Source: Frondihabitans australicus
Lineage (GTDB): Bacteria; Actinomycetota; Actinomycetes; Actinomycetales; Microbacteriaceae
Direction of reading: 5' to 3'
Assembly (NCBI RefSeq): GCF_003634555.1
Contig: NZ_RBKS01000001.1
Location: 2,542,001 to 2,606,000, forward strand
Length of the DNA stretch: 64,000 nucleotides
This document shows positions 2,077-56,861 of the stretch, piece by piece. Made by a program: the position numbers and the translations under genes. Every line of letters begins with the position of its first letter. Position 1 is the stretch's first letter. Under the pieces are notes generated by a model that ran no database searches, was not told the origin of the DNA, and saw only the letters and a program-made list of their open reading frames with translations.

Positions 2077-2859
2077 TCAGAGGCTCGTCATGCCGCCGTC
2101 GACGCGGAAGATCGCCCCGGTGGCGAAGCCCGCCTCGTCGCTCGCGAGGTAGGTCATGATGCCGGTGACGTCGGAGGGTGCCCCGGGCCGTCCGAGCGGA
2201 GTGCGCGAGACGATGCCGGCGCGAGCCTCGGCGTCGCCCGAGATCGTGGTGACGAGGCCGGTCTCCGTGTAGCCCGGCACGACCGTGTTGACGCGTATGC
2301 CGTCCGCGGCATACGCCATCGCGGTCGCGCGCACGAGCGAGTGGATGCCGCCCTTGCTCGACGAGTAGGCGGCGAAATCCGCTCCCTCGCCGTTGAGACC
2401 GGTCGGGCTGCCCGTGCACACGATCGAGCCGCGCGAGCCTGAGGCGAGGAAGGTCCGCACGGCGTGCTTCACCGTGAGGAACGTGCCCGTGAGGTTCACG
2501 TCGATCGTCGATCGCCACGCCTCGAGCGAGACGTCGGCGGTCTTGGCGTCGCGCCCGAACAGCTGCACTCCGGCGTTCGCCACCACCACGTCGGGCGTGA
2601 ACCCGGCGCCGACGGCCGACGCGAACGCGGCCTCGACCTGTGCCTCGTCCGCGATGTCCACCGCCACGGCGAGAGTCGAACCCGTGGTCGCAGGAGCAGC
2701 GGCACCCGCCGCCGAGGCCGCCGCCGACGCCGCCTCGAAGTCCCGGTCCGCGTACACGACGCGGGCGCCCTCGGAGGCGAAGGCGTCCGCGATGGCTCGA
2801 CCGATCCCGGATCCTGCGCCCGTCACCAGCGCCGTCTTGCCGGTGAGCCGCCCCGTCAC
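2077..2859 (-). CDS. Short-chain dehydrogenase/reductase (SDR, classical)
   Basis: A 260-residue classical SDR. It has the cofactor motif TGAGSGIG near residue 13, the NAG motif in VVANAGVQ, and the catalytic Ser-Tyr-Lys set in GSPTGLNGEGADFAAYSSSKGG. An acidic residue after beta-2 (YADRD) suggests NAD(H) rather than NADP(H). The start is a GTG that overlaps the TGA of the upstream hydrolase gene (GTGA), typical of translational coupling. Position in a sugar-uptake operon suggests oxidation of a sugar, polyol or lactone released by the neighbouring hydrolase. The substrate cannot be read from sequence. Confidence 0.88.
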   Translation of the reverse strand: MTGRLTGKTALVTGAGSGIGRAIADAFASEGARVVYADRDFEAASAAASAAGAAAPATTGSTLAVAVDIADEAQVEAAFASAVGAGFTPDVVVANAGVQLFGRDAKTADVSLEAWRSTIDVNLTGTFLTVKHAVRTFLASGSRGSIVCTGSPTGLNGEGADFAAYSSSKGGIHSLVRATAMAYAADGIRVNTVVPGYTETGLVTTISGDAEARAGIVSRTPLGRPGAPSDVTGIMTYLASDEAGFATGAIFRVDGGMTSL

Positions 2860-4631
2860 TCGCCGGCCCCGGTGTCGACGCGGGTCAGCCGGACGGCCAT
2901 GTAGGCGCGCGCGGGCAGGTCGACGACGAAGCGGCCGGAGGCGGTGCCCGGCAGCTCGTCGACGGTCATGTTCCAGGTGTCGATGACCTCCACCCTCCAG
3001 GCGAACTGCGGGTCGTGGAAGAAGCGACGGAACCGCGGCCTGCCGAACCCGAAGTAGTAGAGGTACTGCTCGCCGGGTCGGCCGGCGACGGTGGCGTCCC
3101 ACTCGGTCTCGAGGGGCTCGAGCACGCCGGCCGGGCTCTCCTCGATGAAGCGGGTGAGGAACCCGATGCGCGCCGGGCTCTCGCCGTGCAGCTCGCCGCC
3201 CTTTGCCCACCAGAGGATCTCGTCGGGGTCGACGTAGGTCTCGCCGTGGCCGACGTACCCGCCGCGCAGCGCCCCCTCCCAGAATCGCCGGGTCATCTCC
3301 TCGCCGGAGATGTTGCCCCAGCCCTGGTCGATGTCGCCCTCGTAGGCGGCCTCGTCGACGACGACCGGCTTGCCCCAGGTGCGGCGCCACTCTGTCGTCA
3401 TCTCCGACGTCTTGTACATGTCGGTCCGCTGCATGCTCACGTGGGTGATCCACGGGCGGGACTGGTCGTAGACGATGCGGCAGTTGTGGATCGAGCGCGG
3501 GTGCTGTGCGGCGTCCCAGGTCTCGATGATCTGCGCCCAGCGCTCCCAGTCGGCCTCGGACTTGTCGAAGAGCAGGTCGAACTCGTTGGCGAGCGACCAC
3601 CACAGGTTGCGGAACGCACCCAGCCTCGCCACGGCGTAGCGGACGTAGCGGTCGTCCGAGGCGGCGTCCATCGTCGAGAATCCCCAGCGGTCGTAGGCGT
3701 GGAAGAGGATGAGGTCGGCCTCGACGCCGAGCTCGGCCAGCTGGTCGATCCGGTGCTCCAGTCGGCGCCAGTAGTCGACGTCGAACGCCTCGAGGTCGAA
3801 CGCCCCGTCGTCGCGCCGGTCGAACGGGAAGCGCTCGGGCTCGTTGCTGTTGAACGTGTACGACTTCGGGAACACGCACATGCGGAGCTTGTTGAACGGC
3901 GACTCGGCGAGCGTGCGCAGGGTGGTGTCCTGCAGCTCGTCGGGTTGATGGGTCCAGGCGTAGCTCGTGGTGCCGATCGGCAGGTACCGACGCCCCGACG
4001 CGTAGGCGAAGTGGTATTTGTCGGCGACGCGGACGGGGCCGTCGGAGGTGGCGGGCGTCACGGTGAAACCTCCGCGGATCCTGCTCAGCGACCGGGCGTT
4101 GCTCGCCGTCTCGAAGCGCCATGACCCCTCGACGTCGGGCAGCAGGCGCACCACGTACGACCCGTCGCCGTCGTAGAAGCCGAGCACGTCGCGCACCTCG
4201 TCGCCCGGCCCGAAGAAGCGGGCCGTGAGCTCGACGTCGACGAACGGGTTGCCGTGCGACGGCCCCGCGAGGCGGATCTCGAAGCGGGTCCACCGGGCGA
4301 CAGACTCGTCGTGCGTGACTCTGGCCGACCCGATCGCCACGTCGTCGGCCTCGTAGTCCTGCGACGGCGGCACGGGAGGGGTCCTGCCCGCGATCTCGGC
4401 GACGGGCGCCTTGATGGTCTCGAGTTCACGCAGGATCGCCTCCCGGTCGCTCGCCGTCAGCGAGTCCTCGGTCTCGAGCACGAGCCCGAGCGGCTGCGCG
4501 TGGAAGGTGTGGAGCAGCGTGGACTCGACGATCGACGGGGCGTGACGGCGCAGGACGCCGGCGGCCTCGTGGTCGCGGAGCACGTCGAAGAGAGCTGATC
4601 CCGCGTGGAATCGGCTGGTCGGGGAGGTCAT
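2856..4631 (-). CDS. DUF5060/DUF4038/DUF5605-type glycoside hydrolase-like protein
   Basis: A 591-residue cytoplasmic protein without signal peptide. After an N-terminal region of about 115 residues there is a DUF5060-like beta-domain (WTRFEIRLAGPSHGNPFVDVELTARF), a TIM-barrel-like middle (PIGTTSYAWTHQ, SPFNKLRMCVFPK, ADLILFHAYDRWG), and a DUF5605-like beta C-terminus. Two acidic candidates fit clan-A glycosidases: the Glu in WSLANEFD, and the Glu in VVVDEAAYEG as possible nucleophile. The gene sits three bases after the permease and overlaps the SDR. Together they suggest intracellular cleavage of an imported oligosaccharide. The family has few characterised members, so the substrate is unknown. 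Confidence 0.8.
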   Translation of the reverse strand: MTSPTSRFHAGSALFDVLRDHEAAGVLRRHAPSIVESTLLHTFHAQPLGLVLETEDSLTASDREAILRELETIKAPVAEIAGRTPPVPPSQDYEADDVAIGSARVTHDESVARWTRFEIRLAGPSHGNPFVDVELTARFFGPGDEVRDVLGFYDGDGSYVVRLLPDVEGSWRFETASNARSLSRIRGGFTVTPATSDGPVRVADKYHFAYASGRRYLPIGTTSYAWTHQPDELQDTTLRTLAESPFNKLRMCVFPKSYTFNSNEPERFPFDRRDDGAFDLEAFDVDYWRRLEHRIDQLAELGVEADLILFHAYDRWGFSTMDAASDDRYVRYAVARLGAFRNLWWSLANEFDLLFDKSEADWERWAQIIETWDAAQHPRSIHNCRIVYDQSRPWITHVSMQRTDMYKTSEMTTEWRRTWGKPVVVDEAAYEGDIDQGWGNISGEEMTRRFWEGALRGGYVGHGETYVDPDEILWWAKGGELHGESPARIGFLTRFIEESPAGVLEPLETEWDATVAGRPGEQYLYYFGFGRPRFRRFFHDPQFAWRVEVIDTWNMTVDELPGTASGRFVVDLPARAYMAVRLTRVDTGAGE

Positions 4632-4634
4632 GGG

Positions 4635-5543: not shown

Positions 5544-6475
5544 TGTTTGTCTCCCTTGAAGGTCCAGAGCATGTAGGGCACGACGAGGACCAGGCTGACG
5601 GCGAACAGGACGGTCGCGATCGCGTTGCCGAGCCCGAACTCGTGGTTCGAGAACGACTGCTGATACGACCACAGCGCCAGCACCTGGGTGGACTGAGCGG
5701 GGCCGCCGCCGGTGGTGCCGACGATGAGGTCGAACACCTTCAGCGACGAGATCATCGTCAACACCACGACGATGATCGTCGTCGGGCGCAGCGCCGGCCA
5801 GGTCACGGCGCGGAAGATCTGGAACTTCCCCGCACCGTCGAGTTTCGCGGCCTCGACCAACTCGTCGGGGACGTTCTGCAGGCCCGCCATGTAGAGCACC
5901 ATGTTGAACCCGGCGGTCTGCCACACGAACGCGACGAAGATCGCATACAGGGCCACGTGCGCGTCGCCGAGCCAGTCGTGGGCGAGGGAACCCAGGCCGA
6001 CCTGGTGCAGGACCCCGTCGATGAGGCCGGACTGCGGGTTGTACAGCCACACCCACATCGTCGCGACCGCGATCGACGCGAGCACGGCGGGGATGTAGAA
6101 CGCGCTGCGGAGCAGGTTCCGGCCGAACAGCTTCTGGTTCAAGCCCAGCGCGAGCAGGAGACCGAGGGTCGTCGGGACGAGCAGCGAGAGCACGACCCAG
6201 ATGACGGTGTTGCGGAACGCGGGCCAGAACACCGGATCCTGCGTGAAGATCCTGACGTAGTTCGAGATGCCGACGAAGACGGGGGAGGTGGTGATGAACC
6301 CGTTCCAGGAGAAGAAGCTCATCACCACGGTGTCGACCATCGGATAGACGAGGAACACCAGGAACAGCAGCAGCGCGGGCACCACGAACAGGAACGCGGC
6401 CCACCCGGGGGCGAGGCGCCCCCCGCGCCGCGGCGTGGTGCCGCGACGCGGAGAGCTCGACTTCAGAACAGTCAC
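5540..6475 (-). CDS. Carbohydrate ABC transporter permease, MalF/UgpA type
   Basis: A 311-residue permease with six membrane segments and an EAA motif (DELVEAAKLDGAGKFQIFRAVTWPALRP). I place the start at the GTG seven bases after the binding-protein stop. An in-frame ATG at 6,535 would overlap that gene by about 50 bases and add an arginine-rich, unlikely leader. No clear ribosome site is visible, so coupling to the upstream gene is likely and the start is uncertain. It forms the heterodimeric channel with the MalG-type permease that follows. Confidence 0.88.
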   Translation of the reverse strand: MTVLKSSSPRRGTTPRRGGRLAPGWAAFLFVVPALLLFLVFLVYPMVDTVVMSFFSWNGFITTSPVFVGISNYVRIFTQDPVFWPAFRNTVIWVVLSLLVPTTLGLLLALGLNQKLFGRNLLRSAFYIPAVLASIAVATMWVWLYNPQSGLIDGVLHQVGLGSLAHDWLGDAHVALYAIFVAFVWQTAGFNMVLYMAGLQNVPDELVEAAKLDGAGKFQIFRAVTWPALRPTTIIVVVLTMISSLKVFDLIVGTTGGGPAQSTQVLALWSYQQSFSNHEFGLGNAIATVLFAVSLVLVVPYMLWTFKGDKQ

Positions 6476-6482
6476 GACAGGC

Positions 6483-7766: not shown

Positions 7767-7818
7767 GTCATCTCCTTTGATGGGGGCGGGGAATGGACCC
7801 CGGAAGTGTGTGCTGTGT

Positions 7819-7876: not shown

Positions 7877-7937
7877 GTAGTCGCCGAAAAAATTCCGACG
7901 GGTATGCGCAGGATCCGAGTGCCTGCGCCTCCTGCGT

Positions 7938-7943: not shown

Positions 7944-7975
7944 CGCGAAAATCGACCCCCGCCGAAGGAGGCCCC

Positions 7976-9013
7976 GTGGCGACCGAACGCCCCAGACGGC
8001 GGCCCAGCATGGCCGATGTCGGCCGCGCCAGCGGCGTCTCCGCGCAGACCGTGTCGCGCTACTACACCGGCGGCTACGTCTCCCCCGCGACCCGCGACCT
8101 CATCGAGCGCGCCGTCGGCGAGCTGGGCTACCAGCACAACAAGCTGCCGAGCATCCTCCGCGCCCAGCACACCGACGCGATCGGCTTCCTGTCGATGGGG
8201 CCGCTGAACTACGGCAACTCGGGCATCCTCACCGGCATCAGCCGGGCGGCGAGGGCCGAGGGCCAGACCCTTCTCACGACGCAGCTCGACCTCGATCCTG
8301 AGTCCCCTTCGTCGCAGCGCGAGTTCACGCGCACCCTCGAGAGCTTCCTCTCCGTGCGGGTCGACGGCATCGTCGTCGGCACCCCCTACGTCGGCCTCGA
8401 GAAGCTGCTCGAGGCGGTCGGCCGCACGGTGCCGATCGTGTCGCTCTCGGAGGTGACGTACGAGGGCATCGACACCGTGCACGCCGACTCGTACGGGGCG
8501 GCTCGCCTGGCGGTGCGGCACCTGATCGAGCTGGGGCACCGCCGGATCCTGCATCTGGCCGGCCCCGGCAACCGCAACGAGTCGGGCGAGCGCGTGCGCG
8601 GCTACCGCGACGAGCTTTCGGCGGCGGGCATCGCCGAGCTGCCGATCGTCCGGTGCGACGAGTGGGACGCCGTCTCGGGCGCGAGCGGGGCCGAGCGGGC
8701 CGACCCGTCGACGTTCACGGCCGTCTTCTCGGCGAACGACGAGCTCGCCCTCGGCTTCATGAGCGTCATGCGCTCGCGCGGGCTCGTCGCGCCGCGCGAC
8801 TACTCCATCGCAGGAGTCGACGACATGCCCGAGGCGCGCTTCTTCGCCCCGTCTCTGACCTCCGCCCGCCTCGACTTCGAGGAGCTCGGCGAGACCGCTC
8901 TGCGGATGATCCTCGGCCGGATCCACGACGTCGAGCAGACGCCGCGCGAGGTGATCCCGGCCGTGCTCTCGGTCCGCGAGTCGACTGGCGCTCCCGCGGC
9001 CGCGACGACCTAG
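7976..9013 (+). CDS. LacI family regulator of the divergent sugar operon
   Basis: A 345-residue LacI/GalR regulator. The helix-turn-helix is at about residues 11-32 (SMADVGRASGVSAQTVSRYY). The hinge reads YQHNKLPSILRAQ, lacking the usual YRPNxxAR. The effector domain follows, with IGFLSMGPLNYGN, the HADSYGAARLAVRHLIELGHRRILHLAGP core and VDDMPEARFFAPSLTS. GTG start with GAAGGAGG site. It is divergent from the 7,766 operon, whose promoter carries two palindromes suited to this family. The C-terminal end overlaps the convergent oxidoreductase by four bases. The inducer is presumably the transported sugar. Confidence 0.9.
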   Translation: MATERPRRRPSMADVGRASGVSAQTVSRYYTGGYVSPATRDLIERAVGELGYQHNKLPSILRAQHTDAIGFLSMGPLNYGNSGILTGISRAARAEGQTLLTTQLDLDPESPSSQREFTRTLESFLSVRVDGIVVGTPYVGLEKLLEAVGRTVPIVSLSEVTYEGIDTVHADSYGAARLAVRHLIELGHRRILHLAGPGNRNESGERVRGYRDELSAAGIAELPIVRCDEWDAVSGASGAERADPSTFTAVFSANDELALGFMSVMRSRGLVAPRDYSIAGVDDMPEARFFAPSLTSARLDFEELGETALRMILGRIHDVEQTPREVIPAVLSVRESTGAPAAATT

Positions 9014-10356
9014 AGGCGCACGCCGAGGCCGAGCTCGTCGACTGTGACGGCCCGGCCGTCCTGCAGCGAACGGTTACCCGCGATGCCGACGGCGACCGAC
9101 CGCACGCCGTCCGCCCACGTCGCCGCGCGCCCGAGCGGATCGCCGCCGGGCCCACGGAACACGTCGTTCATGAGCAGCGCGTCTCCCCCGCCGTGGCCGC
9201 CGGCACCCGACTCGATCGGCACCTCGCGCGCCGCCTCCCACAGCCGCTGCACGACCAGCCGCTCGCCGACTCGGCGCGCCGCCGCCGCCGCAACTCCCCC
9301 GTCGTCGGCGACGGCACTGGGGTCGATGGCGCGCTCCCCGTCGAGCAGCACCGCCGCCCGCTCGACCACGTCGAGCTCGGCCCGGCCCTCCGTGCCCGTG
9401 ATCGCGACGCGGTAGCCCTCCCAGGGCGCATACGTCGTCAGCGAGTACGACATGCTCGCGCCACCCGTGTAGTCGACCACCGCAGACAGGGTGTCCTCGA
9501 CGTCGATGCCGGCCGAGAACACGTCGCGATCGCGGAGGTACCCGTCGAGCGGCTCGGCGTCGAGATAGAGGGCTCGGAGGCGCGGATCCTGCCGCAGATC
9601 CAGCTGGAACGGGTCGGTCGGGCCGTCGTGGGTGCCCCGGGCCGGCCTCTCGCCGAGCCCCCGGCGCGCGGCGTTCGCGTCGCCGTAGAACCGCAGCCCG
9701 CCCGAGAGGAAGACGCGGCGGGGCGAGTCGCCGAGCCACCAGTTCACGAGGTCGAAGTGGTGCGACGCCTTGTGCAGCTGCAGGCCGCCGGAGTGCTCCC
9801 GCTCGCGATGCCAGCGCCGGAAGTAGTCGGCGCCGTGCATCGAGTCGAGCACCCACTCGAAGTGCACGGCCGTCGGGGTGCCGATCGCGCCCGACGCGAC
9901 GACGCTCTTGAGCGCGGCATTGCGCGGCGAGTAGCGGTAGTTGAACGTCACGACGACTTCGCGACCGGTCTCCGCCACGGCTCGCGCGATCGTGCGCACT
10001 CCCTCGGCGTCGATGGTGAGGGGCTTCTCGACGACCACGTCGGCTCCGGCCCGCAGGGCCAGGTCGATGTAGTGCGCGTGCCGGAAGTCGGGCGTCGTGG
10101 CGATCACACGGTCGATCGCCTCGCGCTCGATCACCCCGGCCAGATCGTCGGGCCTGACGAATCGGGCCGCAGGAGCCGCGTCACCCAGCCTCGCCAGATG
10201 CCACCGGGCGCGCGCCTCGTTGCAGTCCGACACCGCCACGAGCTCTGCCACATCGGACTGCGACCCCGTGATCGCGTCGAGCCAGGTCTGCGCCCGACTC
10301 CCGGCTCCGACGAGGGCGTAGCGGCGGCGGGGCGGGGTCTGAGCGGCGGCGGTCAT
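9010..10356 (-). CDS. Gfo/Idh/MocA family oxidoreductase (long form)
   Basis: A 448-residue NAD(P)-dependent oxidoreductase. A Rossmann N-terminus (RYALVGAGSRAQTWLDAI) is followed by the EKP motif in VVVEKPLTID and by a C-terminal domain containing HKASHHFDLVNWWLGD, which carries the conserved His of the family. It is longer than the usual 330-380 residues because of inserts in the second domain (residues about 215-285). It starts at an ATG with a GGAGG site. The 3' end overlaps the convergent LacI gene by four bases. It probably acts on a sugar or inositol derivative linked to the sugar operons on either side. The substrate is not inferable. Confidence 0.88.
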   Translation of the reverse strand: MTAAAQTPPRRRYALVGAGSRAQTWLDAITGSQSDVAELVAVSDCNEARARWHLARLGDAAPAARFVRPDDLAGVIEREAIDRVIATTPDFRHAHYIDLALRAGADVVVEKPLTIDAEGVRTIARAVAETGREVVVTFNYRYSPRNAALKSVVASGAIGTPTAVHFEWVLDSMHGADYFRRWHREREHSGGLQLHKASHHFDLVNWWLGDSPRRVFLSGGLRFYGDANAARRGLGERPARGTHDGPTDPFQLDLRQDPRLRALYLDAEPLDGYLRDRDVFSAGIDVEDTLSAVVDYTGGASMSYSLTTYAPWEGYRVAITGTEGRAELDVVERAAVLLDGERAIDPSAVADDGGVAAAAARRVGERLVVQRLWEAAREVPIESGAGGHGGGDALLMNDVFRGPGGDPLGRAATWADGVRSVAVGIAGNRSLQDGRAVTVDELGLGVRL

Positions 10357-10409
10357 GCCTCCGGTCTACTCGCCGGGCGCGGCGACCCGTCAGGGCGCAG
10401 GATCGGCGC

Positions 10410-10760: not shown

Positions 10761-10791
10761 CGCGCCAGAGTCGCCGACGAGTCGGCGGAGC

Positions 10792-10817: not shown

Positions 10818-11831
10818 GTGGCGGTCAGCATGGGCGACGTGGCGGCGCACGCCGGCGTCTCGCAGCGCACCGTGTCGAACGTCGTGAACCGCTCCGCGAA
10901 CGTCGCGCCCGCAACTCGAGCCCGCGTCGAAGCGAGTCTCGCGGCTCTCGGCTACCGGCCGAACGCCGCCGCTCGCAAGCTCCGCAGCGGCCGGACGGGT
11001 GCGATCACGCTCGCCCTCCCCGGCTTCGACGAGCGGTACTTCGCCGACCTCGCCGAGGCGGTGATCCGGCACGCGCGCGACCTCGGGGTGGACGTGCTGG
11101 TCGAGACCACGGGCGGTGACCACGAGCGCGAGTTGGCGATCCTGCGAGGCCGTCAGGGGCTTCTCACCGACGGCGTGATCATGTCGGCGGTGACCATCGG
11201 CTCGGCCGACGAGAGCGTGCAGCGCGCACCGTATCCGCTCGTGCTCGTCGGCGACCACGAGTTCGAGGGGCCGGTCGACCACGTCGGGATCCCGAACCGC
11301 AAGGCCGCGCGTGCCGCCGTCGAGCATCTCTTCGCCACGGGCAGGAGGCGCGTCGCCCTCGTCGGCGAGAACGACGAGTCGCTCGACTCGGCGTCGCTCC
11401 GCAAGCAGGGGTACTTCGCGGCGCTCGAGCATCGTGGCGTCCCCGCGAGCGAGGCTATCGTCGTTGCGGCGCCCTGGCAGTACGAGGCCGGGGAGGCCGT
11501 CGTGGCCGCACTCCTCGCCCGCGACGAGATGCCCGACGGCATCTTCGCGATGAACGACTCCCTGGCGCTCGGCGTGATATCAGCGCTGCTACGCGCAGGC
11601 GTCCGGGTGCCGCAGGACTGCGCCGTCGTCGGCTTCGACGACACCCTCGAGGCCCGCCACGGGTTCCCCACGCTGACGTCCGTCGCCCCGTCGCTCGACG
11701 AGATCGCGGCCAATGCGCTGGACATGCTCCGCGCCCAGTTCATCGACGCCGGCGCCGAGCGGGCGAGCGTCGAGCGTCGCCACGTGGCGTTCGAGCTCCG
11801 CGTGCGGGAGTCGAGCGCCCCCGCCGAATAA
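10818..11831 (+). CDS. LacI family regulator of the second sugar operon
   Basis: A 337-residue LacI/GalR protein. The helix-turn-helix lies at residues 4-26 (SMGDVAAHAGVSQRTVSNVV), followed by a canonical hinge (YRPNAAARKLRSGRTG). The periplasmic-binding-protein-like effector domain includes DHVGIPNRKAARAAVEHLFATGRRRVALVG and VVGFDDTLEARHGFPTLTSV. GTG start with GGGAGG five to six bases upstream; an ATG four codons later is an alternative. It is codirectional with the operon at 11,945 and 113 bp upstream, and two ACGT-centred operators in the gap are its likely targets. Confidence 0.9.
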   Translation: MAVSMGDVAAHAGVSQRTVSNVVNRSANVAPATRARVEASLAALGYRPNAAARKLRSGRTGAITLALPGFDERYFADLAEAVIRHARDLGVDVLVETTGGDHERELAILRGRQGLLTDGVIMSAVTIGSADESVQRAPYPLVLVGDHEFEGPVDHVGIPNRKAARAAVEHLFATGRRRVALVGENDESLDSASLRKQGYFAALEHRGVPASEAIVVAAPWQYEAGEAVVAALLARDEMPDGIFAMNDSLALGVISALLRAGVRVPQDCAVVGFDDTLEARHGFPTLTSVAPSLDEIAANALDMLRAQFIDAGAERASVERRHVAFELRVRESSAPAE

Positions 11832-21905: not shown

Positions 21906-21971
21906 CTCATGGTTTACAGAGCGTTCACGCGCTTCCGGGCCTCGCGAGGGGCGCAGGAGCCGCGGCAGGGC

Positions 21972-23894: not shown

Positions 23895-25058
<1,164 letters not shown>

Positions 25059-28368: not shown

Positions 28369-28390
28369 CCCGGCGCCCAGCCCCGCCGCC

Positions 28391-28396
28391 TAGAGT
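28391..28396 (+). promoter_or_regulatory. -10 hexamer of the XPB gene
   Basis: TAGAGT lies seven bases before the ATG at 28,404 and no ribosome site is present, so XPB probably has its own leaderless promoter despite the adjacent partner gene. Confidence 0.5.
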
Positions 28397-28403
28397 GGGC
28401 AGG

Positions 28404-34495: not shown

Positions 34496-34545
34496 CGGCG
34501 TCGGGGCACTCGCAGGGGACCCTTCGCCTGCTCCTGCGCCCGACG

Positions 34546-48598: not shown

Positions 48599-50752
48599 GT
48601 GGCGCAGCAGAACACCCTGCATCTCCGAGGCGGCGGCACCAGTGTGCTCGTCGACCGCACGACACCGGGCGTCCCGGCGATCGTGCACTGGGGCCCCGAC
48701 CTCGGAGACCTGGCCGACGACGTCCTCGACGACATCGCCCGCGGCGTCCGCCCTCAGCGGGTCTCGGGCGGACTCGACGAGACGGGGCGACTGACCCTCC
48801 TCCCGCAGGAGGCGTTCGGCTGGCAGGGCACTCCCGCGCTCCTGGGCTCCAGGCTGTCGGGCGGCACGGCGGGGTCCGACTTCTCGTCGGCGCTCGTCAT
48901 GACGGCTCTCGAGGCGACCGCGTCCGCTCTGCGGCTGACGGCTCAGGACCCCGCCACCCGGCTCCGCCTCGACCTGGAGGTCGACGTGACACCCACCGGC
49001 CTGGTCGCCGTTCGCGCCACCCTCACCAACGAGGGCGACGCCGACTACGAGGTGCAGGATCTGGGGCTCACCCTGCCCCTCCCCGCCTCGGCCCGCGAGG
49101 TCGCCGACACCACCGGGCGACACCTCCGCGAGCGACACCCGCAGCGCCACCCCCTCTCCGTCGGCCGGTACGTCCGCGAGTCCCGTCGCGGACGTCCCGG
49201 CTCCGACGCCACGCTCCTCCTGCTGGCCGGCGAACCCGGCTTCGGGTTCGAGCGCGGGCTCGTGCACGGCGTCCACCTCGCCTGGAGCGGCAACCACTCG
49301 CTGAGCGTCGAGCGGAGCCAGAACGCGCCGAGCGCCCTGCGTGCCGCCGAGCTGCTCGCGCCGGGTGAGGTCGTGCTGCGGCCCGGGGCGAGCTACTCGA
49401 CTCCTGTGGCATTCGGATCCTGGGGCCGCGGCCTGAACGAGCTCTCGTCGCGCTTTCACGAGCACCTGCGCCGTCGGCCGCAGCACCCGAGCGCCGACCG
49501 GCCGGTGACCCTCAACACGTGGGAAGCCGTCTACTTCGAGCAGGATCTCGCGCACCTCACCCGGCTGGCCGACCTGGCCGCCCGCGTCGGCGTCGAGCGC
49601 TTCGTCCTCGACGACGGCTGGTTCTCGTCACGGCGCGACGACACGGCGGGCCTCGGCGACTGGACGGTGTCGCCGGAGGTCTGGCCGGACGGCCTGGCTC
49701 CGCTCGTCGACCACGTCACCGGGCTCGGCATGCAGTTCGGCCTCTGGGTGGAGCCCGAGATGGTGAACCCCGACTCCGACCTGGCCCGAGCCCACCCGGA
49801 CTGGATCCTGCAGGCCCGAGGGGTCTGGCCCGCGAGCGCGCGGCAGCAGCAGGTGCTCGACCTCTCGAACGAGGAGGCGTTCGACCACATCCTGCGAGCG
49901 CTGGACGCCCTGCTGGGCGAGTACGCGATCTCGTACCTCAAGTGGGATCACAACCGCGATCTCGTCGAGGGCGGGTCGACCGTCACCGGGCGGAGCGCCG
50001 TGCACGAGAACACCCTCGCGGTGTACCGGCTCATGGACGAGCTGAAGCGCCGCCACCCCGGGCTCGAGATCGAGAGCTGCGCCTCGGGCGGCTCGCGCGT
50101 CGACCTCGGTGTCATCGAGCACACCGACCGGGTGTGGGCGAGCGACACGAACGACCCGCTGGAACGTCTCACGATCCAGAAGTACACGGGCCTGCTGCTG
50201 CCGCCCGAGCTGATCGGAGCCCACATCGGTGCACCGCACGCGCACACGACGGGACGGCACCACACGCTGCCGTTCCGCGCGGGCGTGGCGCTCTTCGGGC
50301 ACCTCGGCGTCGAGTGGGACCTCGCGTCGGCGAGCGCCGACGAGCTCGGCGACCTGACGGCCTGGATCTCGCTCTACAGGGAGTGGCGCGACGACATCGC
50401 GACGGGCGCGCTCGTGCACGCGGACCTCGCCGACGACACGATGGACCTCCGGGGCGTCGTCGCGCGGGACGGCTCCCGTGCCCTCTTCGTCTACGCCCAG
50501 ACGGCGTCCGCGCAGTCGCACCCCACCGGCCGCCTGACCTTCCCCGGTCTCGACGCGGCCGCGACCTACCGCGTCGAGCCGCTCGCGCACCCGGCGAGCG
50601 CCACGGGCGTCGGGCAGTCACCGCTCGGGTGGCGCGACGGCGTGGTCTCGACCGGCGCGGCGCTGCACGAGATCGGGCTGCAGGCTCCCGTGCTCCTGCC
50701 CGAGACGCTCGCTGTCATCACCGTGACCCGGGTCGGCGAGGCGACACCGTGA
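48599..50752 (+). CDS. Alpha-galactosidase, GH36
   Basis: A 717-residue cytosolic GH36 enzyme: N-terminal beta-sandwich, central TIM barrel and C-terminal beta domain. The nucleophile is the Asp in SYLKWDHNRD (near 447) and the acid/base is the Asp in WASDTNDPLERL (near 515). YFEQDLAHLTRLADLAARVGVERFVLDDGWF and FGLWVEPEMVNPDSDL are also characteristic. It removes alpha-1,6-galactosyl residues, for example from raffinose, leaving sucrose. The GTG directly follows the permease TAG, so it is coupled. Confidence 0.94.
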   Translation: MAQQNTLHLRGGGTSVLVDRTTPGVPAIVHWGPDLGDLADDVLDDIARGVRPQRVSGGLDETGRLTLLPQEAFGWQGTPALLGSRLSGGTAGSDFSSALVMTALEATASALRLTAQDPATRLRLDLEVDVTPTGLVAVRATLTNEGDADYEVQDLGLTLPLPASAREVADTTGRHLRERHPQRHPLSVGRYVRESRRGRPGSDATLLLLAGEPGFGFERGLVHGVHLAWSGNHSLSVERSQNAPSALRAAELLAPGEVVLRPGASYSTPVAFGSWGRGLNELSSRFHEHLRRRPQHPSADRPVTLNTWEAVYFEQDLAHLTRLADLAARVGVERFVLDDGWFSSRRDDTAGLGDWTVSPEVWPDGLAPLVDHVTGLGMQFGLWVEPEMVNPDSDLARAHPDWILQARGVWPASARQQQVLDLSNEEAFDHILRALDALLGEYAISYLKWDHNRDLVEGGSTVTGRSAVHENTLAVYRLMDELKRRHPGLEIESCASGGSRVDLGVIEHTDRVWASDTNDPLERLTIQKYTGLLLPPELIGAHIGAPHAHTTGRHHTLPFRAGVALFGHLGVEWDLASASADELGDLTAWISLYREWRDDIATGALVHADLADDTMDLRGVVARDGSRALFVYAQTASAQSHPTGRLTFPGLDAAATYRVEPLAHPASATGVGQSPLGWRDGVVSTGAALHEIGLQAPVLLPETLAVITVTRVGEATP

Positions 50753-52593
50753 CCGCCCTCCACCGCGCCACCGCCACCGACCGTCACCGCTTCGACGAGC
50801 GGGTGAGGGTGCAGGAGCCGCGCCTCGTCGACCTCCTCCACCGCCTGTACGGCGACGACCCCCGCCTGGCCGGGGTGCTGGAGTGCCTGCGCCGCGACAT
50901 CGAGCACGCCTGGGAGACCCGCCCCCACGACCTCCGCATGCTCGACGATCGGCGCGACGTCGACCCGGCGTGGTTCCAGTCGAACCGGATGCTCGCCGGC
51001 GTCTGCTACGTCGACCGCTACGCCGGCACCTTCGCGCAGCTCGCCGAGCACATCCCGTACTTCCAGGAGCTCGGGCTCACGGTGCTGCACCTCATGCCGG
51101 TCTACGACTGCCCCGAGCCGAATTCCGACGGCGGCTACGCGGTGTCGAGCTACCGGCGCACGAAGGCGGCCCTCGGCACGATGAACGACCTGCAGCACCT
51201 CGCGGCGAAGCTACGCGCGGCCGGGATCTCGCTCACCCTCGACTTCGTCTTCAACCACACGTCGAACGAGCACGAGTGGGCGCGCCGAGCCCTCGCCGGC
51301 GAGCGCGAGTTCGTCGACTACTACTGGATCTCCGACGACCGCGAGCTGCCCGACGCGTTCGAGGCGACGACGCGAGAGATCTTCCCCGACGACCATCCGG
51401 GGTCCTTCACGCGGCTGCCGGACGGGCGCTGGATCTGGACGACGTTCCACACCTTCCAGTGGGACCTCAACTACGCGAACCCCGAGGTGTTCCGCGCGAT
51501 GGCGGGCGAGATGCTGTTCCTCGCGAACCAGGGCGTCGAGATCCTGCGGATGGACGCCGTCGCCTTCATCTGGAAGCAGCTCGGCACGTCGTCCGAGAAC
51601 CTGCCGCAGGCGCACCTCCTGCTACAGGCGTTCAACGCGGTGCTCAGGATGGCGGCCCCGGCGGTCCTCTTCCTCTCGGAGGCGATCGTCCACCCGGACG
51701 ACGTGGTGAGCTACATCTCGCCCGAAGAGTGCGAGCTCAGCTACAACCCGCTGCAGATGGCGCTCGTCTGGTCGACGCTCGCGACCCGCGACGTCGGGCT
51801 CCTGTCGCAGGCGCTGGAGACGAGGCACGCGCTGCCGAAAGGGACCGCCTGGGTCGACTACATCCGCAGCCACGACGACATCGGCTGGACCTTCGCCGAC
51901 GAGGACGCCCGCGCGCTCGGCATCGACCCCGAGGCGCACCGCCGATTCCTCAACCGCTTCTTCGTCGGCGACCACCCCGGCAGCTTCGCGCGCGGCGCGC
52001 CGTTCCAGACGAACCCGAAGACGGGCGACAGCCGGGTGGCGGGAGCGACCGCGTCGTTGGCGGGGCTCACGGCGGGCGACGACCGGGCGGTCCGCCGGAT
52101 CCTGCTCGCGCAGTCCCTCAGCCTGTCGACCGGGGGCATCCCCCTGCTGTACCTGGGCGACGAGGTGGGGCAGCAGAACGACGACGGCTACCTCGACGAC
52201 GAGGGCAAGCGCGGCGATGCCCGGTGGGCCGGGAGGCCGCCGTACCCGGCGGGGCTCTACGCGTCACGGCACGACCCCGCGACATCGGCGGGCGCGCTCT
52301 ACGAGGGGCTGCGCGACCTCCTGCGGGTGCGGGCGACCCTGCCCGCGTTCAGCGGGGGCGACCTGATCCCGTTCCACACCCACGACCGGCACGTGCTCGG
52401 CTTCCAGCGGCCGGCCGGGAGCGGCGCGACGGTGCTCGTGCTGGCGAACTTCGGCGATCTCCCCGCCACGATCGACCCGCTGACCCTCTCGGGGCTGCCG
52501 CCGATCGCCGTCGACGCCGTCACCGAGGGGTTCGTCGATCTGCGCGAACCCCTGACGCTCGAGGCGCTGGGATTCGTCTGGCTGCTGGTCTAG
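50749..52593 (+). CDS. Amylosucrase/sucrose hydrolase-like GH13 (subfamily 4)
   Basis: A 614-residue GH13 enzyme of the amylosucrase group. N-terminal helical part (about 1-80), then the barrel: nucleophile Asp in EILRMDAVAF (near 266), acid/base Glu in LFLSEAIVHP (near 309) and stabiliser Asp in IRSHDDIGW (near 373). The catalytic and B-domain features (YDCPEPNSDGGYAVSSYR, TLDFVFNHTSNEHEW) match the group. It either hydrolyses sucrose or transfers glucose to make alpha-glucan; the balance cannot be read from sequence. Coupled to GH36 by GTGA, fitting sucrose as the product passed on. Confidence 0.88.
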   Translation: MTALHRATATDRHRFDERVRVQEPRLVDLLHRLYGDDPRLAGVLECLRRDIEHAWETRPHDLRMLDDRRDVDPAWFQSNRMLAGVCYVDRYAGTFAQLAEHIPYFQELGLTVLHLMPVYDCPEPNSDGGYAVSSYRRTKAALGTMNDLQHLAAKLRAAGISLTLDFVFNHTSNEHEWARRALAGEREFVDYYWISDDRELPDAFEATTREIFPDDHPGSFTRLPDGRWIWTTFHTFQWDLNYANPEVFRAMAGEMLFLANQGVEILRMDAVAFIWKQLGTSSENLPQAHLLLQAFNAVLRMAAPAVLFLSEAIVHPDDVVSYISPEECELSYNPLQMALVWSTLATRDVGLLSQALETRHALPKGTAWVDYIRSHDDIGWTFADEDARALGIDPEAHRRFLNRFFVGDHPGSFARGAPFQTNPKTGDSRVAGATASLAGLTAGDDRAVRRILLAQSLSLSTGGIPLLYLGDEVGQQNDDGYLDDEGKRGDARWAGRPPYPAGLYASRHDPATSAGALYEGLRDLLRVRATLPAFSGGDLIPFHTHDRHVLGFQRPAGSGATVLVLANFGDLPATIDPLTLSGLPPIAVDAVTEGFVDLREPLTLEALGFVWLLV

Positions 52594-52604
52594 CCTGACT
52601 CGCC

Positions 52605-53201
52605 ATGACCTGGTCTCCGACGCCGCCGCCCCGCGCGACGAGACCCGGTGACGTCCCGCCGGCGCACGCCGCACCGTCGGCCACCGCCCCGTCGGTGCCG
52701 ATCCGGCGGCGCAGGATCCGACTCGCCCTCGTGGCCCTCGCTCTCGTCGCCGCCCTCGCCCTCGCCTTCACCGCCGGCGGCCAATTCGAGCGGCAGACCT
52801 CCGCGCGCTCGGGAGCCGCGACGCTCACCGCCCGCGAGCGGGCCTCCGACATCGGCACGGCCCTCGACCGTCCGCGCCGCGCGGCAGACCTCCCGGTCGG
52901 ATACCAGGCCGGCCCCGACCTGCCCTACCCCGGCGACTCGTACCGGCTGCTCTACGACGAGTCGCCCCACGCCGCCGCCGACGCCCCGCGCTGGCGGGTG
53001 TGGGTGGGCGAGGGCGTCGACGCCTCGCAGCTGTGCGTCGTCGCCGCCTACACCGAGGTGCAGGAGCTCGTGGACTGCTACCCGGCGGCCCAGCTCTACA
53101 CCGGCACGTTCACCGTGGCGAGCCCCGTCGGCAGTGCCCCGCTCGCGATCAACGTCGTGTCCGGCGACGTGATCGTGAACGGTCACGCCGTCCGCCGGTG
53201 A
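52605..53201 (+). CDS. Hypothetical single-pass membrane protein
   Basis: A 198-residue protein: Pro/Ala/Thr-rich cytoplasmic part (1-37), one membrane helix (about 39-58, LALVALALVAALALAFTAGG), and a 140-residue exported domain with two cysteines (LCVVAAYTEVQELVDCYPA). No family recognised; the C-terminal domain has a small beta-rich look. Leaderless ATG (TAGCCT eight bases upstream, sharing the TAG stop of the GH13 gene). Confidence 0.65.
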   Translation: MTWSPTPPPRATRPGDVPPAHAAPSATAPSVPIRRRRIRLALVALALVAALALAFTAGGQFERQTSARSGAATLTARERASDIGTALDRPRRAADLPVGYQAGPDLPYPGDSYRLLYDESPHAAADAPRWRVWVGEGVDASQLCVVAAYTEVQELVDCYPAAQLYTGTFTVASPVGSAPLAINVVSGDVIVNGHAVRR

Positions 53202-53214
53202 TAGCGTCGCGACC

Positions 53215-53904
53215 ATGACCTCGACCTTCGTCATCGTCGGGTACGGTCCCGGCATCTCGCACGCGGTCGCCGAGCGCGCTGGCGCCGACGGCCACCGGCT
53301 CGCTCTGGTCGGCCGCACCGAGTCCCGTCTCGGGGAGGGCGTCGCGGCCCTCGCGCAGGCGGGCATCGACGCGGCCGCCTACCCCGCCGACGCCTCCGAC
53401 CCCGCGTCGCTCGGCGAGGCGCTGGCCCGCATCACCGCCGACGCCGAGAGCGTCGCCGGCGTGCTGTGGACGGCGTTCCGGGGTGGGAACGTCACCGACG
53501 TGCTGGCTGCCGATCCTGCGACCCTCGGCGACGTGTTCGGCGTGGGGGTGCGCGGGCTGCTCACGACCGTGCAGGCTCTGCGCGAGCCCCTCGTCGCGAG
53601 CGGAGGCGTGGTGCTCGTCGCCAACGGCGCGCTCGGCGAGGCGAGCGAGCAGATGGACGCGGTCTCGCAGATGCTGGGCGCCGACGGCACCGCCCTCGAG
53701 TGCGCGGCGAAGTCGAAGCTCGTGGGCCTTCTCGCCGAGCGTCTGCGAGGCGACGGCGTCTACGTGGGGCAGATCACGGTCGCAGGATCAGTGAGCGGCA
53801 CGGCGACGGCGTCTCCGACCGCGATCTCCGCCGCCTCCATCGCGGAGCAGTTCTGGTCGATGGCGTCCGAGCGCTCCGAGACCCGCACCCGCATCGCCGA
53901 GTAG
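53215..53904 (+). CDS. SDR-like Rossmann protein without the catalytic Tyr-Lys motif
   Basis: A 229-residue protein with an SDR-type N-terminus (VIVGYGPGISHAVAERAGADGH and ALVGRTESRL). The usual Ser-Tyr-x-x-x-Lys block is replaced by SQMLGADGTALECAAKSKLVGLL, so the tyrosine is missing and dehydrogenase activity is doubtful. It may bind NAD(P) as a sensor or act on an unusual substrate. Leaderless ATG with TAGCGT seven bases upstream. Confidence 0.7.
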   Translation: MTSTFVIVGYGPGISHAVAERAGADGHRLALVGRTESRLGEGVAALAQAGIDAAAYPADASDPASLGEALARITADAESVAGVLWTAFRGGNVTDVLAADPATLGDVFGVGVRGLLTTVQALREPLVASGGVVLVANGALGEASEQMDAVSQMLGADGTALECAAKSKLVGLLAERLRGDGVYVGQITVAGSVSGTATASPTAISAASIAEQFWSMASERSETRTRIAE

Positions 53905-53908
53905 CCCG

Positions 53909-54952
53909 TCACCCGAGCAGCGCGAACGCCTCGTCCGCCCAGCCCACGCGATGGGCGAGCGCCAGGCCCCGCTGCCGGAAGAGATGCTCGGGCTCGGCCG
54001 GGCGGTGATAGGCCGAGTGGTTCGCGCCGCCCGCCGCACCGAGCAGGAGCGGAAGCAGCCAGATGTACTTCACGCACGACGCGACGAGGCCGAGCCGGGC
54101 GTCGCGCTCGCTGCCCGTCCAGCCCGCCTCGCGGAGGCCTCCGAGGTAGGCGGGCCAGCAGGCGGCCTCGAGCTCGGCGAGCCGTTCGGCCGGCCAGAAG
54201 AGGTCGAAGACCGCGTCGGGGAGGTAGTTGCCGAGGTCCTCTCCGACGGCCCCGTCGCCGGCGAACGCCCAGTCGACGAGCACGACCTCGCCCGACGGCC
54301 GCCGGATCACGTTGGCCACCCAGGCGTCGAGGTGGCACAGGGTCCGCGGTAGGCGCTCCATCACGGCGAAGAGGTCGTCCTGCCGCTGCAGGAGCCGCTG
54401 CCAGCCGTCACGCAGACCGCTCGGCCAGGTGTCGCGGATCAGCGGCTGATCCCAGGCCGCGTCGTCGTCGACAAGTGTGTAGTCGGCAGGCCGGCTCGTC
54501 GCGTAGGCGCGGAGGAACCCGCGCGAGGCCCACTCCGGCATCGGCTCGAGGGGTCGGGCCGGCCAACGGCCGAGACCGCTCGCGACGGCGACGTGGTCGT
54601 CGAGCGAGAAGTCGGGGCCGGCTGTGCCGTCGACGTCCTCGAGCCGCAGGTCGATCGTGTCGCCGTGCCGGACGACGTCGGCGCCCGGGAGCCCGAGACC
54701 CGTTCCGCGCAGCGATGCGCTAAATCGGGTGTCGCCGTAGACGTCCGCCTCGCGGATCCAGGAGTTCCAGTCGCTCGGCTCGGCGGACGACCGCCAGTGG
54801 GCGAGCGACTCGGTCACGGTGCCCGCCCGGCGCAGCCGCTTGACGACCCGCGTGGTGCCATCGGTGGCGCGGACGCGCTCGACGGTGGCGGTCGTGGCGT
54901 TGTTCGGGTTGAAGCGCAGGGTCTCGACGGTCTCGACAGTCTCGTCGCTCAT
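53909..54952 (-). CDS. Aminoglycoside-phosphotransferase/choline-kinase-fold protein
   Basis: A 347-residue kinase-fold protein. The catalytic loop LCHLDAWVANVIRR has the His-x-Asp-x5-Asn pattern and EVVLVDWAFAGDG the metal-binding Asp. The N-terminal lobe has a beta-rich ATP-site region (ERVRATDGTTRVVKRLRRAG). It probably phosphorylates a small alcohol or sugar; true antibiotic resistance is unsupported. The start overlaps the stop of the SGNH hydrolase (ATGA), so the two are one unit. Confidence 0.78.
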   Translation of the reverse strand: MSDETVETVETLRFNPNNATTATVERVRATDGTTRVVKRLRRAGTVTESLAHWRSSAEPSDWNSWIREADVYGDTRFSASLRGTGLGLPGADVVRHGDTIDLRLEDVDGTAGPDFSLDDHVAVASGLGRWPARPLEPMPEWASRGFLRAYATSRPADYTLVDDDAAWDQPLIRDTWPSGLRDGWQRLLQRQDDLFAVMERLPRTLCHLDAWVANVIRRPSGEVVLVDWAFAGDGAVGEDLGNYLPDAVFDLFWPAERLAELEAACWPAYLGGLREAGWTGSERDARLGLVASCVKYIWLLPLLLGAAGGANHSAYHRPAEPEHLFRQRGLALAHRVGWADEAFALLG

Positions 54953-55539
54953 GACCGGAGCCAGTCGAGGAGGGAGCGCTCGACGAGGGCCGCCAGCCGG
55001 GCGTAGCCGGCGGCGTCCGGGTGGAAGCCGTCGCCGTCGCGAGTCTCTCCTCGCCAGACCTCGTCGGCCGCCGTCGCGGCGTAGACGCCGACGAAGGGCA
55101 CGCCACGCTCGTCGCACCGGCGTGCGAACGCGCGGCTCAGCTCGTCGATCCGCTCGTTCTGCTCATCGTCGTCGACGGCCGGCGGCCCGACGACCAGCAG
55201 TCCGGCAGGCGCGATCGCGGCGATGATCCCCTCGAGCGCGATCAGCGATTCGTCGAGACTCGCGCGCCGCAGGCCGTCGACCTCGACGGTGTCGTTCACT
55301 CCGACGGAGAGCACGACTCGGGCGTCGGTGGCAGCTGCGAGTCGCGGCTCGATCTCGCGCAGGATCCGATCGCCGACCATGGCGGTCGTGTCCCCGCGCA
55401 CGCCCAGGTTGTACGTGGTGAACGGAATGCCTGCGGCTGTCGCTGCGTCTCCGATGCGCCCGACCCACCCCAGTCCGCTGGAGTCCCCCACGCCCACCAC
55501 GAGCGAGTCCCCCACGAAGCAGCAGCGAGTGTCCTTCAT
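54949..55539 (-). CDS. SGNH/GDSL hydrolase
   Basis: A 196-residue esterase-like hydrolase of the SGNH group: block I FVGDSLVVGVGD (Ser nucleophile in GDS), block II Gly in NLGVRGDTT, block III VLSVGVNDTVEV (Asn), block V DGFHPDAAGYARLA (Asp-x-x-His). Cytosolic, no signal peptide. Leaderless ATG (TACGGT six bases upstream). Transcribed with the kinase-like gene; substrate unknown. Confidence 0.85.
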   Translation of the reverse strand: MKDTRCCFVGDSLVVGVGDSSGLGWVGRIGDAATAAGIPFTTYNLGVRGDTTAMVGDRILREIEPRLAAATDARVVLSVGVNDTVEVDGLRRASLDESLIALEGIIAAIAPAGLLVVGPPAVDDDEQNERIDELSRAFARRCDERGVPFVGVYAATAADEVWRGETRDGDGFHPDAAGYARLAALVERSLLDWLRS

Positions 55540-55559
55540 CGACTCACCGTACTGTGCCC

Positions 55560-55770: not shown

Positions 55771-55773
55771 AAA

Positions 55774-55848
55774 TGGCTGGGGTACCTGGACTCGAACCAA
55801 GAACAACTGAACCAGAATCAGCCGTGTTGCCAATTACACCATACCCCA
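55774..55848 (-). tRNA. tRNA-Gln (anticodon CUG), CCA encoded
   Basis: A full cloverleaf on the minus strand: acceptor TGGGGTA/TACCCCA, D-arm GTGT/ACAC, anticodon loop TTCTGGT (anticodon CTG), T-loop TTCGAGT, discriminator G followed by an encoded CCA. The other two tRNA genes of the window do not encode CCA. Confidence 0.93.
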
Positions 55849-55916
55849 AAGATATATCGCTGAAGGCGTGAGCCGGGGCGCTACATCAGTGTCGGCCCGG
55901 AAACCGAACCGAGAAA

Positions 55917-56861
55917 CTACTGTACAGCATCGGCGAGGTCGCGAATGCCGCCCACCAGGTCGCGGTTGATGGTGGCGGCGGTTCGCGCGCCGGATCCTGC
56001 GGCCACGATGAGCTGCTGAGGGCCGGGCGCCGCCGACTCGCCGGCGACGTAGAGCCCCGCTATGGTCGTGCGACCGTGGCCGTCGTCGACGAGCAGGCCG
56101 TCTGCGTCGACGTCGGGATCGAGGTCGTCGAGGTAGTGGAGCTCGCTGGACCAGCCGGGGCGCACGAAGCCGCCGACGCGGTCGACGACGTCGCCGTCGG
56201 TCATCCTGATGCCGGTCACTCCGTCGCGGTCGCCGACGATGCCGGAGATGGTTCGCCGATCGACGGCGATGCCGCGAGCGTCGAGGGCGTCCTCTTCGAC
56301 CATGGTGACGACGTCGGCGCCGTTCGTGAACACGACGAGATCGTCGCTCCACTGCGACAGGAGCAGCGCGCGCTCGGCGAGGTCGGGGAACTCGCCGATC
56401 ACGGCGAGGGCCTGGTCGCGCTTGTCGTAGCCGTCGCACTCGATGCAGCTGTGGAAGGAGGTCCCGTAGAACGCCCGGAGGTTGTCGATCACGGGCAGCG
56501 TCTCGGTCAGACCCGTGGCGACCAGGACGGTGCGAGCCGTGGCCTCGCTGGCCTTGCCGCGCATCTCGCAGGCGATGTGGAAGCCGCCGTCGACGCGGGA
56601 GATGCGCTGCGCCAGCGTCATTCGGTGCTCGGCGCCCTCGTACGCGAGGAACTCGTCGCGGCCGAGCTTCCGTAGCTCCAGCGGCGAGATGCCGTCGCGA
56701 GTGAGGAATCCGTGCGCCACGAGCGTCGCCGAGTTGCGCGGGCGGTTGCTGTCGATCAGCAGGACCCGACGGCGCGCTCGCACGAGGTTCAGCGCAGCGC
56801 TGAGGCCGGCGGGCCCGCCGCCGACGACGGCGACGTCGTAGACAGCGGCGGCGTCGCTCAC
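55917..56861 (-). CDS. NAD(P)/FAD-dependent oxidoreductase with CxxC (thioredoxin-reductase-like)
   Basis: A 314-residue flavoprotein. [29 protein letters not shown] binds [26 protein letters not shown] is the second FAD motif. [10 protein letters not shown] carries a CxxC (Cys-Ile-Glu-Cys) in the place of the redox pair of thioredoxin reductases, but the family spacing ATCDG differs, so the partner may not be thioredoxin. GTG start overlaps the gltX stop (GTGA), suggesting cotranscription after gltX. Confidence 0.85.

Follow-up and report, generated by a model that had tools for sequence, protein, structure and literature searches.

Why does a single octamer recur so often, on both strands, in one stretch of an actinobacterial chromosome? 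The stretch in question is a 64-kb window of Frondihabitans australicus, of the family Microbacteriaceae (contig NZ_RBKS01000001.1, positions 2,542,001 to 2,606,000; hereafter the window), and the octamer is GCAGGATC, which an earlier note on this DNA had picked out as over-represented. Our preferred reading, to which we give a probability of roughly 0.6, is that a putative DNA uptake sequence runs through the family and that its dialect in this species is the more general form GCAGGAKC (K = T or G). Genomes are given G numbers below, and sampled stretches and loci L numbers.

An exact-match scan of the window yielded 33 copies of GCAGGATC, 17 on the plus and 16 on the minus strand. All 30 positions listed in the earlier note were correct, and three copies had been missed (at 4077 on the minus strand, 49054 and 49540 on the plus strand). 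In 100 dinucleotide shuffles of the window the mean was 3.2 copies, and none reached 33. When the 16617 8-mers of the window, each merged with its reverse complement, were ranked by second-order Markov z-score, GCAGGATC came first (33 observed, 3.6 expected), and ranks 2–5 went to words that overlap it or to sister words. A third-order model expected 8.3 copies; a maximal-order model, built on the octamer's own 7-mers, expected 31. The sister form GCAGGAGC, also called frequent in the earlier note, occurs 31 times (4.8 in shuffles). The ribosomal RNA operon (58447-63897) contains neither form, the nearest copy before it being the GCAGGAGC at 57904. The exact matches in the window are:

2810..2817, minus strand, GCAGGATC
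4077..4084, minus strand, GCAGGATC, missed earlier
4430..4437, plus strand, GCAGGATC
6235..6242, minus strand, GCAGGATC
7908..7915, plus strand, GCAGGATC
8545..8552, minus strand, GCAGGATC
9585..9592, minus strand, GCAGGATC
10397..10404, plus strand, GCAGGATC
11138..11145, minus strand, GCAGGATC
12605..12612, minus strand, GCAGGATC
13778..13785, plus strand, GCAGGATC
14348..14355, plus strand, GCAGGATC
15495..15502, plus strand, GCAGGATC
15945..15952, minus strand, GCAGGATC
16746..16753, plus strand, GCAGGATC
17198..17205, plus strand, GCAGGATC
20151..20158, plus strand, GCAGGATC
23179..23186, minus strand, GCAGGATC
28135..28142, plus strand, GCAGGATC
36068..36075, plus strand, GCAGGATC
41365..41372, plus strand, GCAGGATC
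42799..42806, minus strand, GCAGGATC
44817..44824, minus strand, GCAGGATC
49054..49061, plus strand, GCAGGATC, missed earlier
49540..49547, plus strand, GCAGGATC, missed earlier
49804..49811, minus strand, GCAGGATC
51540..51547, minus strand, GCAGGATC
52098..52105, minus strand, GCAGGATC
52711..52718, plus strand, GCAGGATC
53512..53519, minus strand, GCAGGATC
53782..53789, plus strand, GCAGGATC
55359..55366, plus strand, GCAGGATC
55993..56000, minus strand, GCAGGATC
1112..1119, minus strand, sister form GCAGGAGC
1296..1303, plus strand, sister form GCAGGAGC
1967..1974, minus strand, sister form GCAGGAGC
2690..2697, plus strand, sister form GCAGGAGC
10169..10176, plus strand, sister form GCAGGAGC
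12026..12033, plus strand, sister form GCAGGAGC
17605..17612, plus strand, sister form GCAGGAGC
18247..18254, minus strand, sister form GCAGGAGC
18650..18657, minus strand, sister form GCAGGAGC
19824..19831, plus strand, sister form GCAGGAGC
21148..21155, plus strand, sister form GCAGGAGC
21953..21960, plus strand, sister form GCAGGAGC
24423..24430, plus strand, sister form GCAGGAGC
26722..26729, minus strand, sister form GCAGGAGC
26940..26947, plus strand, sister form GCAGGAGC
27556..27563, minus strand, sister form GCAGGAGC
28715..28722, minus strand, sister form GCAGGAGC
32030..32037, plus strand, sister form GCAGGAGC
34530..34537, minus strand, sister form GCAGGAGC
36615..36622, minus strand, sister form GCAGGAGC, inverted pair with 36651
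36651..36658, plus strand, sister form GCAGGAGC, inverted pair with 36615
41155..41162, minus strand, sister form GCAGGAGC
42529..42536, plus strand, sister form GCAGGAGC
50692..50699, minus strand, sister form GCAGGAGC
50811..50818, plus strand, sister form GCAGGAGC
53060..53067, plus strand, sister form GCAGGAGC
54043..54050, plus strand, sister form GCAGGAGC
54388..54395, plus strand, sister form GCAGGAGC
57211..57218, minus strand, sister form GCAGGAGC
57322..57329, plus strand, sister form GCAGGAGC
57904..57911, minus strand, sister form GCAGGAGC

The word is not confined to the window. The whole genome (G000, 4.04 Mb) contains 2135 copies of GCAGGATC, split 1072 to 1063 between the strands; the reversed word used as a control beside these whole-genome counts is a poor one, since it contains CTAG. 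In a 464-kb sample of the genome, made up of 20 spaced 20-kb stretches and the window, we counted 253 copies against 62.5 expected from a third-order Markov model and 78 after synonymous-codon shuffling inside genes, a 3.2-fold excess. Both comparisons are conservative, because both models include the motif's own words or codons, and the excess survives the Markov and codon corrections that the earlier note had proposed. A first-order model expected 27 copies against 261 observed in 499 kb (9.6-fold). Neighbouring copies of GCAGGAKC in the sample lie on average 845 bp apart.

The excess is also sharply bounded. Among all one-mismatch neighbours of GCAGGATC in the same 499 kb, only GCAGGAGC is comparable (268 versus 261 copies; 6 kb where L014 and L235 overlap were counted twice in these and in the pair-distance counts). 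Changes at positions 2–6 occur at 0–2.1 times the first-order expectation and changes at the ends at 0–3.8 times; at position 7, A reaches 2.4, C 0.9 and G 7.1 times expectation. Because GCAGGAGC alone stands beside GCAGGATC, we take GCAGGAKC to be the word of this genome.

Its placement is largely indifferent to genes. GCAGGATC is as dense in coding (0.54/kb) as in intergenic DNA (0.55/kb) of the sample, and the coding copies are well spread over five of the six registers; by our own reading of the genetic code, the sixth, poorly filled register would force Ser-Cys. G005 and G006, two other members of the genus, likewise have copies in nearly all registers and equal intergenic and genic density. 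As the earlier note had observed, copies often impose uncommon codons (GCA makes up 5% of Ala and GGA 8% of Gly codons). Its suggestion that the favoured pair ATC-CTG contributes holds as an ordinary codon-pair background in other genera, where 32 of 45 pooled coding copies fall in the single register GG-ATC-CTG and intergenic density is 0.05/kb (3 copies), but that pair is not the cause of the excess in F. australicus. Genes were taken from a home-made caller with 81–92% coverage, and register counts of G029, G015 and G020 were left out.

Relatives proved to use other spellings. We compared seven Frondihabitans genomes, G000 and G001–G006. Counts of GCAGGATC range from 844 to 3208 in the six congeners and from 41 to 686 in a set of 30 family members, each from a different genus outside Frondihabitans (raw counts, not corrected for genome size); the richest outsider, G019, has about 214 per Mb, near the 222 or so per Mb of G002, whose own word differs. 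CAGGA- or AGGA-type words stand at or near the top of the third-order rankings in all seven samples, in about six spellings that include GCAGGAKC, GCAGGATC, GCAGGAACT and GCAGGATGC. For G006 (3208 copies in 3.7 Mb) and G005 the word is GCAGGATC alone, the G form being left out (166 versus 32 and 161 versus 32 copies, respectively); G001 uses CAGGAT[CG] forms, G003 GCAGGATGC together with GCAGGAGC, and G004 AGGATCCG forms. The dialect of G002 is GCAGGAACT, with 932 copies genome-wide against 34–61 in the six other genomes, and 35 in its sample against 0.5 expected. The one-mismatch counts and the comparison with relatives, both called for earlier, thus extend the original account: GCAGGATC is one sharp spelling among several in the family.

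The positions of the sites are poorly conserved. In 318 aligned site comparisons between genus orthologues, which include overlapping words and both directions and so are not independent, the partner carried its own dialect at the same place 31 times, about 37 times the chance rate and partly through common descent. Sites turn over faster than random 8-mers (figures are given below), and conservation of site position was rejected. It seems to be the density of tags rather than their position that is kept, with individual sites coming and going.

Beyond the genus, we surveyed 150 Microbacteriaceae genomes from 85 genera. For Microbacterium we pooled 21 comEC-flanking loci and kept L167 apart, its word being different. 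One pooled locus, L124, is deposited as Planococcus sp. APC 4015; it has a Microbacteriaceae-like comEC locus and GGATGCC, and its name looks wrong. The pool contains 573 copies of GGATGCC in 417 kb against a third-order expectation of 143. The word is denser between genes (1.90/kb) than within them (1.31/kb) and occurs in every one of the six registers. Of the 21 loci, L122 and L128 are not rich in it. Among the 150 genomes GGATGCC is sparsest in G079 (about 79 per Mb) and densest in G085 (about 1888 per Mb), with genome sizes rounded; its count reaches 7364 in 3.9 Mb, and its density up to one copy per 530 bp. Other words are CGGATCC in G062 and M. sorbitolivorans L167, GGAGGCGC in G063 and Frigoribacterium, GGATGCCC in Subtercola and CGGATGC in Cryobacterium; GCAGGATC itself is also the dialect word of G075, outside Frondihabitans. 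Samples of G019, G079, G008 and Naasia gave no clear dialect word. Aligned by eye, the words of the family appear to share a GGA core with variable flanks. Elsewhere in the order, where 111 genomes from 19 families were searched, CGGATGCC occurs at about 20–150 per Mb; in six of eight Microbacteriaceae genomes in the same search it reaches about 630–950 per Mb.

Several further repeats were seen during the survey. In L203 and L204, from the small genome G015, 40 kb contain 19 copies of CATCGGTG where 3.6 are expected; they fall in several registers and make it a weak candidate word. L199, from another family of the order (G053), has GTATGCCG 13 times in a single 20-kb sample (0.7 expected) in all registers and may hold a dialect of its own. 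Overlapping words such as GGCCGCACG and ACGTGAAAT, at about 19 copies and mostly outside open reading frames, possibly form an array in L201 and L202 (G020). What seem to be array-like or dispersed repeats, ATTGCATGA (10 copies), AAATCGAAGG (16) and ACTCCTGA (13), were found in L188/L189 of G037, L039–L048 of G005 and L113.

We then consider the strands. None of 21 stretches of the F. australicus genome shows polarity, and the balance is tighter than chance (chi2 6.8, 21 degrees of freedom, lower tail 0.0015). The test rests on the balance within each stretch; a split by replichore assumed an origin at the contig start, and was not used, and the few first genes scanned there gave no sign of an origin. 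The earlier argument that strand balance speaks against a polar FtsK-type signal is borne out, and such a signal was rejected.

Close neighbours are arranged non-randomly. In F. australicus, 21 of 22 pairs less than 60 bp apart are inverted, with four perfect 12-bp palindromes and five pairs between genes. Of the pairs less than 150 bp apart, 7 are on the same strand and 53 on opposite strands, where about 45 (45.4) of each are expected, so the effect is mainly an avoidance of same-strand neighbours. Opposite-strand neighbours outnumber same-strand ones in G000 (284/199), Microbacterium (346/205, p 2e-9) and G085 (70/39), and Microbacterium is enriched in inverted pairs at 15–60 bp (51 versus 20). 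Of three control words, two show no alternation and one the opposite effect.

The word is also sparser in some of the sampled DNA of foreign appearance. Three of the 20 spaced stretches are poor in GCAGGAKC (L011 and L018 with 4 and L004 with 10 copies per 20 kb); in these the G+C content is 64.5–65.2%, compared with 69.6% in the sample overall, low third-codon-position G+C (GC3) is common among the genes, and L011 carries a relaxase. Genes of F. australicus with GC3 below 0.85 contain 0.38–0.69 copies/kb, against 1.0–1.3 above that value. In three Microbacterium phage stretches, two of them near-identical and all from host species outside the Microbacterium pool, CGGATGCCG occurs at 0.07–0.10/kb, against 0.53/kb in Microbacterium loci.

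Competence genes, another check suggested at the outset, are present. comEA adjoins comEC in F. australicus, and ComEC was found in all seven Frondihabitans genomes and in 148 of the 150 from the family; the other two assemblies are fragmented. (In G001 the ComEC match, in L027 and L028, is split between two neighbouring segments that differ in frame, through either a break in the gene or faulty assembly.) All seven members of the genus have adjacent PilB- and PilT-type ATPases and a TadA-type ATPase. The type IVa pilus (T4a) locus of F. australicus adjoins rpoBC and encodes PilM, a prepilin peptidase, a PilC-type protein and four N_methyl proteins; one of these, of 235 residues, is the most divergent protein of the locus (34–51% identity to that of F. 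australicus), which is not decisive for its candidacy as a receptor. The Tad cluster adjoins a topoisomerase-like gene, named from its first residues only, and a syntenic cluster also occurs in the motif-poor G019 and G123. Micrococcus luteus is transformed with comEA/comEC and a Flp/Tad pilus, according to passages of PMC6370729, and comEA, comEC and a Tad cluster are likewise found in Frondihabitans; as a point of difference, a term search of PMC4322843 on M. luteus did not return "uptake sequence". Within the family, natural transformation has been reported for two members of the small-genome freshwater clade, in a paper whose main text lacks the term "uptake sequence" (PMC11577799).

How would such a pattern arise? 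The word is exact, in most spellings asymmetric, balanced between the strands and blind to reading frame; it varies between congeners and is less common in the sampled phages. Such a word needs a reader whose specificity can change and a force that rewrites sites; biased uptake followed by recombination could supply both. On competent cells, a type IV filament, or some other protein at the surface, would bind outside DNA by its GGA-centred core and species-specific flanks and hand it to ComEA and ComEC. Tagged DNA would be preferentially imported and recombined, so that tagged alleles would accumulate at thousands of places in any register, and a change in receptor specificity would start a new dialect. 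We infer all three parts of this proposal: the uptake role of the tag, its reading by a surface receptor and its accumulation through transformation. Of the options in the earlier note, the uptake-sequence-like one is favoured, by the sharp specificity, placement in nearly all registers and between genes, dialects, strand balance, local inverted pairs, lower density in the phages and islands sampled, and the comEA–comEC genes.

Two known systems invite comparison. The DNA uptake sequences (DUS) of Neisseriaceae, whose reader is the minor pilin ComP, are, in the passages cited, short words with hundreds to several thousands of chromosomal copies, often inside genes, with a conserved core, species-specific flanks, rare single deviations, inverted repeats and associated competence machinery (PMC3630211, PMC5031613), all of which the words described here resemble. 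The words here differ from the DUS in their unrelated sequence, with a GGA rather than a CTG core, in their length of 7–9 bp and in their Gram-positive actinobacterial hosts. The uptake signal sequence of Pasteurellaceae, given in part of PMC5031613 as a 9-nt word with a 3–4-nt core, is likewise abundant and split into dialects, but its sequence is unrelated and it belongs to another phylum. We consider it probable that the Frondihabitans word works in the manner of a DUS, its membership in that class being provisional.

A number of results weigh against this interpretation. Alternation was not significant in seven of ten sets tested, G000, Microbacterium and G085 being the only significant ones; avoidance of same-strand neighbours was absent in G005/G006 (8 same, 14 opposite below 150 bp, too few) and in the pooled other genera (33 same, 38 opposite below 100 bp). 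GC3 and motif density showed no overall correlation in F. australicus, with no low-GC3 trend in G005 and none clear in G006, and GGATGCC in phages still reaches 1.6–2.2 times its third-order expectation, against 4.0 times in chromosomes. After synonymous shuffling the dialect word headed the ranking in five of the seven genus samples, but it was only fifth in G002 and stood lower still in G004, whose word is the weakest and least certain of the genus. Only 69 of the 318 site comparisons (22%) were identical, against 35% for random 8-mers. The small genomes G015 and G020 are poor in GGATGCC and gave no clear dialect, and it is to the small-genome freshwater clade that the transformable members belong. 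ComEC is present in the motif-poor G019 and G079 too.

The search for a receptor belongs with these results. A T2SSE match at E <= 1e-60 was found in 83 of the 150 family genomes, 78 of them at PilB strength and five only at 1e-66 to 1e-70; PilB was not found among these 150 in the strong-motif G085, G133, G153, G107 and G062, and the T4a pilus as universal reader was rejected as a strict rule. A second type IV filament (Tad) system as reader was suggested by 14 genomes and rejected after 62, because seven GGATGCC-rich genomes (G009, G012, G024, G071, G117, G142 and G167) have one TadA-type match and no PilB that we could find. The 62 comprise 58 of the 67 genomes without a T2SSE match and four Microbacterium-like genomes (G261 with PilB); nine, mostly incomplete, were left out. 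Across the family, then, neither T4a nor Tad tracks the motif strictly, and no receptor was found.

Which other explanations could account for the word? The best surviving one, which we nevertheless think unlikely, is a Chi-like signal read on single strands by a helicase-nuclease such as AdnAB, tuning resection at double-strand breaks, with each strand bearing its own regularly spaced copies. Avoidance of same-strand neighbours and alternating orientation in some sets would suit single-strand reading, and the words are mostly asymmetric 7–9-mers of lower density in phages. No Chi is known for AdnAB. RecC was found in none of the 150 family genomes, with E. coli detected as control, which argues against RecBCD Chi, and there is no polarity in the 21 stretches, whereas E. 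coli Chi is strongly polar. Candidate Chi motifs are, in the passages cited, well conserved across Enterobacteriaceae (PMC8022716), whereas the spelling here changes within a genus. Like Chi, the word is an over-represented 8-mer, but the Chi-like option of the earlier note, taken as RecBCD Chi, is disfavoured on these grounds to the point of rejection.

Somewhat more doubtful is a role as binding sites for a nucleoid or chromosome-organising protein, one that depends on large numbers of sites, frequently arranged as inverted pairs. Close inverted pairs, a wide spread and thousands of sites are what it would call for, but the changed spelling in congeners and the want of a clear word in the G019 and G079 samples would imply the rewriting of thousands of sites with no biased uptake to drive it. 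We give less credence again to a link with a methyltransferase or with repair, under which DNA modification or mismatch repair would push mutations towards the word. The word has sharp boundaries, and its asymmetric forms may resemble restriction-modification recognition sites; against this, the dialect words differ at several positions, and restriction-modification normally depletes its sites. HIP1 of cyanobacteria offers a parallel as one octamer in genome-wide excess, but it is a palindrome, unlike the words here, which are mostly asymmetric apart from CGGATCCG of G062 and L167. A preference for particular codons or codon pairs, linked to high G+C, would fit the GG-ATC-CTG copies outside the genus and the codon-like words that rank above the dialect word in G002 and G004, but is ruled out as the cause of the F. 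australicus word by its register and intergenic placement, its uncommon codons and its excess over a synonymous shuffle that itself retains motif-derived codons.

Apart from the word, the window contains at 26479-30038 two adjacent genes with a Helicase_C_3 domain in common, the second encoding an XPB-type helicase.

We return to the putative uptake sequence and what it would mean. One 2016 review, in the part available, names sequence-specific uptake for only two families, Pasteurellaceae and Neisseriaceae (PMC5031613), and the literature searched, most subscription journals being outside its scope, held no earlier report of uptake sequences in Actinobacteria. There is perhaps an even chance that the words constitute a third, independently evolved code for recognising self-DNA, which many genera of a single Gram-positive family would share and which would be the first of its kind in Actinobacteria. 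On this reading the code would have a GGA core, and its many dialects would limit gene exchange; the alternating layout may mean that it is also read on single strands after import by ComEC. If so, a third origin of sequence-specific uptake with many spellings would provide independent replicates of dialect change and a practical handle for transforming Microbacteriaceae; it would also open a route to DNA receptors of a new class and allow gene-exchange partners to be predicted.

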